This document shows positions 24,594 through 29,767 of a stretch of DNA of 32,033 nt, piece by piece (positions within the stretch are counted from its first letter, which is position 1; each line of letters opens with the position of its first letter). The DNA lies in NCBI GenBank assembly GCA_024681775.1, contig JAILAF010000001.1, positions 1 to 32,033 on the forward strand, given 5' to 3'. The position numbers were made by a program, and so were the translations under genes. The stretch is from Lachnospiraceae bacterium. GTDB lineage: Bacteria; Bacillota; Clostridia; Lachnospirales; Lachnospiraceae. The notes below the pieces were generated by a model. It saw only the letters and a program-made list of their open reading frames with translations, was not told where the DNA came from and made no database searches.

Positions 24594-24752
24594 TTTTCCG
24601 ATCCTCTCATTAGAATGATTGTCTTGCCGGCGCGCCGTCAGCGCCTGCTTCGGAGCCCGTGCGATTTTCTTATGAATCTGTCCCCTGAAAATGGTATGAT
24701 AGAGGTCGTGGACCGGCCTGCCGGACCAAAATCCCGGGGAAGGAATGAACCT

Positions 24753-25304
24753 ATGAGACCCGTTTTTTTCAAATCAAGGCCCTGGAACCTGTTCCGGGAT
24801 TACATGGAATATTTCCTGACCTACTGCCTCTTCGGCTGGGTCTATGAGTCCGTATGGTGCTGCATGATCTACCACCGCAGAGGCTTCATCAACCGGGGCT
24901 TTCTCTTCGGCCCCTGGCTGCCCATCTACGGCATCGGATTTTTCATCATCCTGGGCGTATTTACCCTGCTGAAGATCAAGCGCCCGCTGCTCGTGTTCCT
25001 GGCGGGCGGCGCCATCGCCACCGCGGCCGAACTCGTCGCCAGCTACATCATCGAGGCCACCGGCGGAGCCCCCATGTGGGATTATACCGGATACTTCCTG
25101 AACTTTGACGGGCGCATCGCACTGGTGCCGGGGCTCATGTTCGGCCTTCTGATCTGGGTAGCCATCTGCCTGATCCAGCCCGCCATCATAAAGCTCCAGG
25201 AAAAATACCGGGATTCCGGGGTGCACAACATCTGCTTCCTCATCGTGGCGGCCCTGTTTTTCATTGACCTCTTGGCCCGTATCCCTCTGGGGAGCAACAT
25301 CTGA
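24753..25304 (+). CDS. Putative ABC transporter type IV membrane protein (PF06541-like)
   Basis: The 183-residue product has about five hydrophobic segments. LTYCLFGWVYESVWCCM near residues 22-38, INRGFLFGPWLPIYGIG and the E-rich turn in AELVASYIIEATGGAPMWDYTG are typical of the PF06541 family, named as putative ABC transporter permease but without proven function. The start at 24753 follows GGGGAAGGAATGAACCT; the longer frame to 24615 lacks support. It is divergent from the GNAT gene and converges on the glycosidase gene with only 11 bases between stop codons. Confidence 0.75.
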   Translation: MRPVFFKSRPWNLFRDYMEYFLTYCLFGWVYESVWCCMIYHRRGFINRGFLFGPWLPIYGIGFFIILGVFTLLKIKRPLLVFLAGGAIATAAELVASYIIEATGGAPMWDYTGYFLNFDGRIALVPGLMFGLLIWVAICLIQPAIIKLQEKYRDSGVHNICFLIVAALFFIDLLARIPLGSNI

Positions 25305-25315
25305 TCTTCCGCGTA

Positions 25316-27286
25316 TCATTCCCCCACGTAAAAGACAGCCGTCAGGTCTCGATTCCCCGCATAGGCATACATCCCGACCATTGCGCCGGTGAAACGCTTG
25401 CCCTTTTTCAAGCCTTCATCGCAGAGGTAGTATACATTATGCAAAGCAGCGAATTCCACAGTTTTCGTATCGCCTGCGGAAGTTTCCGCGCCATCCTTCG
25501 GATAATCGTAGGACAACCGTCGTGATAAATGATCGGTATCCATAACCAAACGGATCCGGGGAACAGACGCAGGAATCGGAACTTCCGCGATCTGTCTGCG
25601 ATCCTCCTCACCCACATGCTCATTTACATAGAGATACCTCTGTCCATCACGGCCCATAACCCCGAACTCCAGAAACGTGTTCTCGTCATAGTACCCGGTA
25701 ATGCCGGCGGACTGTCCCTCGGACAGCTCCGGGATCTCCAGGATCACCGCATAGTGAAATACGAATTCCGTCTGCCGCTTCAGGACGATGTTCCGGCTGT
25801 CCACGGAAGAAAGCGGGGCTTTGCTGCCGCGGATCCGGAAGCTTCCGGACTGCGCATCGTAGGTGATGTCACCGGGTGCAAAAGGTCTGGGCGTCATGTA
25901 CTCCAGAGGCAGACCGCAAGGAGAAAGCACTGTTTTCCGCTCCGGGATCACATCCGCAAAAGGCTTCAGCTGCATGGCGGAGGGACCTTTCAGCCCGTTT
26001 ACGATGGGCCAGCCGTCCGGCGTCCAGGTCACCGGATCCAGCGCCGTCTCTCTCCCCAGGATGCTGTATCCGTCACCGATGGTGCGCCCGCAGAGGTAGA
26101 CCATATACCAGCGACCGTCAGGGGTTTCCACCAGATCCCCGTGGCCGCATCTCTGGATGGCTGCTTCCGGATCGTTCTGCCGCAGGATGGGATTGTAGGG
26201 GCAGGGCTCATAATTGCCGAAGAGCTCCCGGGATCTGGATACGGTCACACGATGACCGAGCCCCGTACCACCCTCCGCTTCCAGCAGATAATAGTAGCCG
26301 TCCTTTTTGTACAGATGAGGGCCTTCCGGAGCACGCTTGTGATCCCCGTAAAAAAGCAGCGTCGCCTCTGAGATCTGCTTCGTGCCGGACCTGTCCAGCT
26401 CCAGGATCCTGGCGCCTCTGTTGAGCAGCATGTACCGCTTCCCGTCATCGTCATTAAAAATGCTGGGATCGATGCCGTCTTCGTCGATAAACACCGGCTC
26501 CGTGTAAGGGCCTTCCGGCCGCTCCGAGGATACCACGATCTGCCTCCGATAGGTAGGCGGCACATCATTCAGGCGATAGGTTGCCGTGATATAAAAGCGA
26601 CCCTCGTAATATGAAATATCCGGGGCCCAATAGCCTCTCCCGCCTTCCAGATCATCCAGATGAGCCCACTCCGGGTTCGTGATGGCATGCCCGATGATCT
26701 CCCAGTGGACCAGGTCCCGGGAGTGAGAGATGGGAATGCATGGGAAGAAGATGAAAGAGGAGTTGACCATGTAGTAGTCCTCTCCAACTCTGCAAATGGA
26801 AGGATCCGGGAAAAAACCGGTCCGGATGGGGTTCCTGTAGAAGCACTCGTAGGGGTGGCCGTATTTTTCCTGCAGATAAGCATCAATCTCCTCTGCAGCC
26901 GCTTCATGCACAATATCCCAGGGCGTCACCAGATTTCGGTCGCCGCCCAAAGGATCCATGCCGCATTTTTCCACCAGGTAACGAAATACTGAGAGATCAC
27001 CGGACTCTGCGGCATAATGCAGCACGTTCCGATGACGATCATCGTACTCGTTCAAACTGATCCTGGAGTACTCCACCAGATATTTCAGGATCTGCAGATC
27101 CCCCTTACGCGCAGCGAGAAACAGCGCTTCTCTGCTGACAATCGCAGGATCCCTGACCAGAATTTCCTTAACGGACGATAATTCGCCCAATTCAATTGTC
27201 TGAAGCAAATGCACATCACTGACCATTCGTTCCCGTTTCCTCTTCAAATCGCGATAGATACGCCTGCAGTCCTTTCTCCGCATCAT
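25316..27286 (-). CDS. Ankyrin repeat - GH43 glycosidase fusion
   Basis: The 656-residue product joins two domains rarely seen together. Residues about 25-145 hold four ankyrin-like repeats (EALFLAARKGDLQILKYLVE, NVLHYAAESGDLSVFRYLVE). Residues about 152-440 form a GH43 five-bladed propeller with Asp161 (FFPDPS), Asp273 (DGIDPS) and Glu321 (APEGPH) as the probable catalytic triad, all present. Residues about 470-656 look like the C-terminal beta-sandwich of beta-xylosidases. There is no signal peptide, so it should act on imported oligosaccharides in the cytoplasm; beta-xylosidase or arabinofuranosidase activity is inferred. ATG 27286 lacks a ribosome binding site but overlaps the stop of a 6-codon ORF; Met21 (27226) is another possible start. 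No sugar transporter or regulator gene is adjacent. Confidence 0.85.
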   Translation of the reverse strand: MMRRKDCRRIYRDLKRKRERMVSDVHLLQTIELGELSSVKEILVRDPAIVSREALFLAARKGDLQILKYLVEYSRISLNEYDDRHRNVLHYAAESGDLSVFRYLVEKCGMDPLGGDRNLVTPWDIVHEAAAEEIDAYLQEKYGHPYECFYRNPIRTGFFPDPSICRVGEDYYMVNSSFIFFPCIPISHSRDLVHWEIIGHAITNPEWAHLDDLEGGRGYWAPDISYYEGRFYITATYRLNDVPPTYRRQIVVSSERPEGPYTEPVFIDEDGIDPSIFNDDDGKRYMLLNRGARILELDRSGTKQISEATLLFYGDHKRAPEGPHLYKKDGYYYLLEAEGGTGLGHRVTVSRSRELFGNYEPCPYNPILRQNDPEAAIQRCGHGDLVETPDGRWYMVYLCGRTIGDGYSILGRETALDPVTWTPDGWPIVNGLKGPSAMQLKPFADVIPERKTVLSPCGLPLEYMTPRPFAPGDITYDAQSGSFRIRGSKAPLSSVDSRNIVLKRQTEFVFHYAVILEIPELSEGQSAGITGYYDENTFLEFGVMGRDGQRYLYVNEHVGEEDRRQIAEVPIPASVPRIRLVMDTDHLSRRLSYDYPKDGAETSAGDTKTVEFAALHNVYYLCDEGLKKGKRFTGAMVGMYAYAGNRDLTAVFYVGE

Positions 27287-29002: not shown

Positions 29003-29767
29003 CTATTCCGGTCTACCGGAATCCTTCCGAAATCGCATCACCAAATAGAGCACTCCGTAGACCAGCAGCATCACCGCAATCGCCAAAAGTGCATATCCGA
29101 TCAGATACCCCGGATTCCCCAGAAAGCCCGCCATCCACTCCAGGGGAGTGCCGGGCTCCGGACGGTTCACAAAGAAATAATTGCAATGAAAATGTTTGTC
29201 AAAAGCGTAGATCGGAGGAACCACCACGCACAAAAACAGGATTTCGTACCAGCTGTGTTTTAAGGAAGGACGAACCTCCCCACACATCAGCAGCAGCATC
29301 GGGTAGAGCACCAACAGCCCATGCCATAGAAAGCTGTGCAGATTGAAGAAGTTCAGAACCGGGTACAAAACCGTCCAATCGGGAAAGATCAAAGCAGTAA
29401 GCGCGCTTGGCATGATCAGGATCACACTGATCTCTCCGAAGAATGCTTTCCACGCATCGGAGGGAAGGAGCTCCCGCAGCAAAAATACAAAGATTCCGAT
29501 GCTGCAGATATGCAGCGGCAGATAGCCCACCCCAAATTTTTGTATGGAGACCAGAAACAGATCCTTCCAAGCCTCCAACAGGATCATCAAAACAGGAATC
29601 CCTTTCAGCACCCTGCGCTTTGTTTTGTCCTCTGCTCTGCGAAATAAAGCAGTCAGCAAAACGGCTGCAGCCAGTGTCACGCAGGTGCTGATGATATGTT
29701 CTTTTCCGAAAAGAGGATACCCCATGTCGGATGGGATATCATCCTGCTGATACCAGAAGTATTCCAT
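29003..29767 (-). CDS. YwaF/TMEM164-type integral membrane protein
   Basis: The 254-residue product has about seven hydrophobic segments. The motif YLPLHICSIGIFVFLL near residues 82-97, the conserved WHGLLVLYPMLLLMCGEVRP and the late NYFFVNRPEPGTPLEWM fit the YwaF family (TIGR02206). The function of bacterial members is not established. It begins six bases after the preceding small membrane protein gene, and GATGAGGT lies directly before the ATG. It shares an operon with the lipoprotein. Confidence 0.75.
   Translation of the reverse strand: MEYFWYQQDDIPSDMGYPLFGKEHIISTCVTLAAAVLLTALFRRAEDKTKRRVLKGIPVLMILLEAWKDLFLVSIQKFGVGYLPLHICSIGIFVFLLRELLPSDAWKAFFGEISVILIMPSALTALIFPDWTVLYPVLNFFNLHSFLWHGLLVLYPMLLLMCGEVRPSLKHSWYEILFLCVVVPPIYAFDKHFHCNYFFVNRPEPGTPLEWMAGFLGNPGYLIGYALLAIAVMLLVYGVLYLVMRFRKDSGRPE

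Follow-up and report, generated by a model that had tools for sequence, protein, structure and literature searches.

The window, by which we mean the whole analysed stretch of 32,033 nucleotides of Lachnospiraceae DNA, encodes on its minus strand a GH43 glycosidase with N-terminal ankyrin repeats (ANK-GH43). The gene and its features are as follows.

25316..27286, minus strand: ANK-GH43-GH43_C2 gene of 656 codons and a stop codon, with Met21 (codon 27226-27224) as the likely start of translation
26861..27217, minus strand: four ankyrin repeats, residues about 24-142 (Pfam, AlphaFold2, Foldseek), with helix pairs at residues 24-33/36-45, 52-61/64-73, 88-95/98-107 and 122-128/132-142 (AlphaFold2)
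27050..27073, minus strand: loop of the EYSRxSxN type that separates repeats 2 and 3, residues 72-79 (alignment of 76 proteins)
26006..26839, minus strand: GH43 catalytic domain, residues 150-427 (Pfam)
26804..26806, minus strand: Asp161 (141 counted from Met21), invariant in 76/76 proteins
26468..26470, minus strand: Asp273 (253 counted from Met21), invariant in 76/76 proteins
26324..26326, minus strand: Glu321 (301 counted from Met21), invariant in 76/76 proteins
25355..25912, minus strand: GH43_C2 (X19) beta-sandwich, residues 459-644 (Pfam)

Genes were taken by script as the longest open reading frames; starts may be misplaced, and at least one real gene was missed (the partner gene on contig C116 described below, which lies under an antisense frame). 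Direct reading marks Met21 at 27226 as the better start of the ANK-GH43 frame, with the purine-rich GAGGAAACGGGA in front of it, and translation probably begins there rather than at residue 1 of the frame. From general knowledge of GH43 enzymes, we take Asp161 to be the catalytic base, Asp273 the pKa modulator and Glu321 the catalytic acid.

The Pfam scan matched Ank_2 to residues 32-112 (E 3e-11, 44.2 bits against a cut-off of 27.3), with Ank_4, Ank_3 and Ank also matching, Glyco_hydro_43 (PF04616) to residues 150-427 (E 5e-86, 289 bits against a cut-off of 32.2), and GH43_C2 (PF17851), the C-terminal domain of type III GH43 members, to residues 459-644 (E 2e-23). The original prediction of an intact GH43 domain with a C-terminal beta-sandwich was thus borne out, and the three catalytic residues that it had named align with the catalytic Asp, Asp and Glu of the solved structure 6MS3.

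The prediction had also placed four ankyrin repeats at residues about 25-145, and had set structure prediction of this part as the check that could overturn the assignment. AlphaFold2, run from Met21 with an alignment of 76 proteins (the window protein and 75 relatives; L008, L010, L059 and L065 were left out by eye as near-copies), placed four helix pairs before the propeller (pLDDT 90.5, pTM 0.90). In blocks of 10 residues, pLDDT was 92-99 up to model residue 130 and 87 over residues 131-140, and there was no low-confidence linker. Folded alone, the repeat part again gave four stacked helix pairs, an ankyrin fold, at a pLDDT of 96.4. The best 50 PDB matches that Foldseek returned for this part were, by title, ankyrin proteins, DARPins or similar designed repeats, and their complexes. 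The lowest E was 3.7e-6, and TM to query was 0.54-0.83 in these best 50 of 527 matches at E <= 0.001. Together, the Pfam scores and the Foldseek matches exclude a chance ankyrin match.

Mean column conservation was 0.55 in the repeat part, 0.75 in the catalytic domain and 0.52 in C2. The N-terminal repeat is variable, and repeat 1 is absent in 7 of the 76 aligned proteins. Residues 72-79 form a loop that does not follow the ankyrin consensus and is conserved like catalytic-domain columns: E72 and Y73 occur in 76/76 proteins, S77 in 74/76, S74 and R75 in 73/76 each, and N79 in 69/76. At the motif positions, the window protein reads E, Y, S, R, S and N. By sequence reading, the motif is absent from diverged members such as L100 and L101.

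In line with the original claim for the window protein, a 15-residue hydropathy screen, cruder than SignalP, showed nothing resembling a signal peptide among the first 45 residues of the 76 proteins (highest value 1.71, in L081; next 1.07). Dockerin was not among the families matched by the Pfam scan of the window protein, which therefore appears to have neither the signal peptide nor the dockerin of a cellulosomal enzyme. A cytosolic location is what we infer.

Neither the GH43 nor the ankyrin part is new. The nearest solved structure, BlXynB of Bacillus licheniformis (6MS2, 6MS3), shares the GH43 domain and the sandwich behind it, aligning in Foldseek at 42% identity with a TM-score to target of 0.90, but has no ankyrin repeats; its 538-residue chain aligns from residue 27. 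The same order of propeller and sandwich is found in type III GH43 beta-xylosidases and arabinofuranosidases with X19 (1YRZ, 5Z5D and BoGH43A, 5JOW), whose chains of 516-543 residues align from residue 3-6 and have no front module. Judged from these nearest relatives, the window enzyme would be of the xylosidase or arabinofuranosidase type. According to an excerpt of PMC6887791, removal of X19 abolished activity in two type III enzymes, and an X19 loop enters the active site. The GH43-esterases Xsa43H (Butyrivibrio proteoclasticus) and 6MLY (Bacteroides eggerthii) are likewise multi-domain GH43 proteins with a second activity in one chain; there the second module is an esterase, whereas in ANK-GH43 it is ankyrin, joined in three genomes by a second GH43. 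An excerpt of PMC5217386 places Xsa43H in the Butyrivibrio proteoclasticus cytosol and describes a cytosolic oligosaccharide-degrading proteome of this species that includes GH43.

Recurrence of the fusion and its phylogeny

In a scan that took one genome for each species, 252 encoded relatives came up. The best 80 of these 252 were examined, and in all of them the match extends into the repeats (the query aligns from residue 54 or before). Since L028 comes from the same metagenome-assembled genome (MAG) as L027, they represent 79 loci, which is a lower bound. By record title, Lachnospiraceae predominate among the carriers in these best 80 (Butyrivibrio, Roseburia, Anaerocolumna, MAGs); a few others belong to Erysipelotrichaceae/Solobacterium, Eubacterium and Cellulosilyticum. 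Two MAG contigs are labelled “Bacillus” and “Alistipes”, perhaps because they were wrongly binned or named. Isolates with the fusion include Butyrivibrio sp. CB08, B. proteoclasticus P18 and Anaerocolumna aminovalerica DSM 1283. Recurrence in at least 79 related loci, isolates included, excludes an error of assembly or gene joining, which the original prediction had named as a second possible refutation. The fusion is confirmed as real and conserved, a cytoplasmic-looking enzyme with a protein-binding type of repeat.

In a family sample of 299 genomes from 298 genera, which shares some genomes with the 79 loci, ANK-GH43 was found in 21, including one in which it is split over two contigs. Ank_2 matched in 64 of the 299 genomes, among them all 21 with ANK-GH43, and the sole Ank_2 place found in the window genome is the ANK-GH43 gene. 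Seven other ankyrin open reading frames of the family were scanned with Pfam, and none had a glycosidase domain; other fusions are possible, and ankyrin might still be a more general tag of carbohydrate-active enzymes. One of the seven joins ankyrin to an M48 peptidase (L135:562-1944) and one to a formyltransferase (L141:1417-2616). Small ankyrin-like frames lie beside Rhs-like frames in G127 (L159:7300-7996, minus strand) and may encode immunity proteins. The stand-alone ankyrin frame of G127, which lies near a gene for the partner enzyme described below, was dropped as a lead after its translated neighbours were read as Rhs-like.

GH43 enzymes of the same type without repeats (ANK-less; L102-L104, L106-L109) formed a separate branch beside the ANK group in a tree of 86 of 166 rows, a quick search that carried a long-branch warning. 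The repeat state needs two changes on this tree, the second of them due to a long-branch ANK-less sequence (L110, genome G039) inside the ANK group.

In searches of the open-licence PMC literature, no description of an ankyrin-GH43 protein was recognised; nor were the combination, the operon, the steady partner or the covalent forms described below. In the consulted part of PMC6801697, GH43 and ankyrin are separate proteins.

Gene neighbourhood and the second GH43 enzyme

On one side of ANK-GH43, the window encodes a membrane protein matching PF06541, a GNAT acetyltransferase and an aldo/keto reductase (Pfam), and on the other side two open reading frames without Pfam match. The original prediction that no sugar transporter is adjacent holds for sugar importers in the window; it must be qualified for transporters at large, as the next gene (24615-25304, plus strand) is the PF06541 match, a family named “putative ABC-transporter type IV”. 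No importer, SGNH esterase, partner GH43, GH105 or GH28 adjoins ANK-GH43 in the window, and operon-type importer, exporter or MATE cluster genes are absent from the window and from the stretches of its relatives L002-L004. Further along, at 29003-29767 (minus strand), the window encodes a membrane protein of the TMEM164 family (E 3e-38), which is named after a eukaryotic protein.

The relatives often show one operon order: a solute-binding protein, two permeases, an SGNH/GDSL esterase, a second GH43-C2 enzyme, ANK-GH43, and then an ABC-exporter-type or MATE protein, sometimes with GH105 and GH28. Among the 79 loci from the best 80 of 252 relatives, where genes beyond the ends of cut-off contigs count as absent, an importer gene occurs in 60, an SGNH esterase in 50, GH105 in 24 and GH28 in 17 (either of the two in 27). 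An ABC-exporter-type gene is present in 21/79 and a MATE gene in 22/79, never both together (0/79), and one or the other is the very next gene after ANK-GH43 in 34 (14 and 20, respectively). This slot, seen in L006, L007, L023, L045 and others, is filled from two unrelated efflux families. An efflux protein in a sugar-import operon perhaps removes a non-sugar product, e.g. an aromatic acid freed from the oligosaccharide. From translations rather than a family search, uxaC was read in six of these 79 loci and uxaB in six. Because the operon combines an importer, an SGNH esterase, a second GH43, a pump and sometimes GH105 or GH28, it may be a cytosolic pathway for imported pectic oligosaccharides.

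The steadiest companion of ANK-GH43 among these neighbours is the second GH43-C2 enzyme, here called the partner. It has about 540 residues and a sequence distinct from that of ANK-GH43, and its best PDB matches are 6MLY and BoGH43A. Among the same 79 loci, it lies within the locus stretch in 52, contig-edge fragments counted; 43 have it as the next gene upstream, in the same orientation, across a median gap of 18 nt. For the other 27 loci, two genome searches found it elsewhere in the genome in 26 (19/19 and 7/8); L050's genome was the one in which it was not found. L040's genome was searched along with those 19, its partner already lying in its own stretch. Most of the non-adjacent partners from the first of these searches share 44-57% identity with the operon partner of L007; the one in L002's genome shares 76%.

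In the window genome, the partner is a GH43 with a C2 domain on a different contig (G000:C116:20715-21788). GH28, GH105 and SGNH lie together on the 7.6-kb contig C85 (L119, G000:C85:1-7606), separate from both GH43 genes. For the partner that the original prediction had supposed to be encoded elsewhere, this genome thus offers a specific candidate; in relatives, the partner is often next door or, in three genomes, fused in front of the repeats.

Within the 299-genome sample, a partner was found in 19 of the 21 genomes with ANK-GH43 (not in G253 and G277) versus 18 of the 278 without it (Fisher p 6.5e-18, a rough guide as the genomes are related). Only four candidates per genome were scored, so that G041's partner was missed, and partners in further genomes without ANK-GH43 may have been overlooked too. 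GH88/GH105 was present in all 39 of the genomes concerned, the 21 with ANK-GH43 and the 18 with only the partner. Among the 94 GH88/GH105-positive genomes, the partner was found in 19/21 with ANK-GH43 versus 18/73 without (p 6e-8, again a rough guide), which argues for more than a shared pectin lifestyle.

All seven genomes of the ANK-less sister branch (G022, G047, G061, G114, G135, G196, G212) have the partner, and in G196 (L107) it adjoins the ANK-less enzyme. The pairing does not need the repeats, therefore, and is likely older than they are. G039, with the long-branch ANK-less L110, gave no partner match at E <= 1e-60 and is an ANK-less case without partner. On the tree, the partner of the window genome groups at a support of 99 with that of L107, which adjoins the ANK-less enzyme. 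The partners of L046, L073 and L091 lie nearby, and the branch with most operon neighbours and the fused modules is a different one.

In three genomes, G271 (a single-contig genome), G045 and G194, the partner GH43-C2, ankyrin repeats and GH43-C2 follow each other in one intact reading frame, which from stop to stop counts 1131, 1142 and 1189 codons, respectively. These proteins lack repeat 1, and the partner's C2 meets repeat 2 after a short stretch. The same GH43-ANK-GH43 order occurs in G093 (L125:7006-10450, minus strand), split in two frames within the first GH43-C2 part, a break that may be real or a sequencing error. The fused proteins branch near the base of the ANK group with moderate support (84-93), and not all together, which would suggest either several fusions, or one fusion and later splits.

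Possible roles of the ankyrin repeats

Ankyrin repeats normally bind proteins, and the original prediction had offered a transporter, a partner enzyme or a regulator in the cytoplasm as their target. The linkage to a second GH43 favors the partner enzyme. We tentatively propose that ANK-GH43 takes part in trimming imported plant oligosaccharides in the cytosol, pectic ones in all likelihood, and that its N-terminal repeats dock the second, different GH43-C2 enzyme there, a reading that we hold to be plausible, though short of probable. The docked pair would work as one unit, with the partner encoded just upstream in many relatives and on another contig in the window genome, and in a few species the link would have become covalent as a GH43-ANK-GH43 chain. 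We place the partner first because it is the most constant companion and because the fusions put it exactly where the repeats begin. Adjacency, co-occurrence, the fused chains and the near-invariant, non-consensus loop 72-79 count in favor of docking. Against it count that the ANK-less sister enzyme keeps the same company, that the partner of the window genome lies in the branch of the sister enzyme's partners, that repeat 1 is missing from 7/76 proteins, and that no partner was found in G253, G277 and L050's genome. Fusion and adjacency, moreover, indicate functional linkage, not contact. A further step, that the two enzymes form a GH43/GH43 unit, mostly non-covalent and covalent in a few species, and pass partly trimmed oligosaccharides between their active sites, seems rather doubtful to us.

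The repeats could instead act within their own chain, packing on GH43 or C2 to stabilise the enzyme, fix how it oligomerises or shape the entrance to its active site, without binding any other protein. The full-length model, with its pTM of 0.90 and continuous confidence, would equally allow such packing, and the repeats are kept in the 75 aligned relatives, including those without a neighbouring partner. The sister branch shows, however, that the same GH43 type persists without repeats, and intramolecular packing leaves the recurrent fusion at exactly the N-terminal end unaccounted for. We regard it as a serious rival to docking, conceivable but on the doubtful side. Alternatively, the repeats might be an addition with a regulatory role, such as binding a regulator, or with none at all, and the partner might co-occur through a shared pectin diet and operon inheritance. 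Such a reading would agree with the ubiquity of GH88/GH105 in genomes with either gene and with the pairing of ANK-less forms; it is unlikely in view of the association that holds within GH105-positive genomes, and of a loop conserved to a degree unexpected for a neutral part. Tethering of the enzyme to a membrane protein encoded beside it, on the cytosolic face of either the importer or the ABC-exporter or MATE pump, is less likely again, frequent as these genes are in the operon, since the pump varies among species while the repeats are constant, and since the window and the L002-L004 stretches have no such gene, the PF06541 neighbour belonging to another family.

Docking of the partner by the repeats would resemble the cellulosome, an extracellular assembly built on cohesin-dockerin contacts, in that a non-catalytic protein-protein module holds plant-sugar enzymes together; it would differ in its cytosolic setting and in using neither dockerin nor cohesin, which were absent from the Pfam scan of the window protein. 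What is known of how plant-fibre breakdown is organised in space comes mainly from outside the cell, as in cellulosomes. If the docking proposal is correct, gut Bacillota may organise cytosolic oligosaccharide breakdown by protein docking, which is directly testable with the named candidate partner, and ANK-GH43 would be a case from nature of metabolic enzymes linked by ankyrin repeats.
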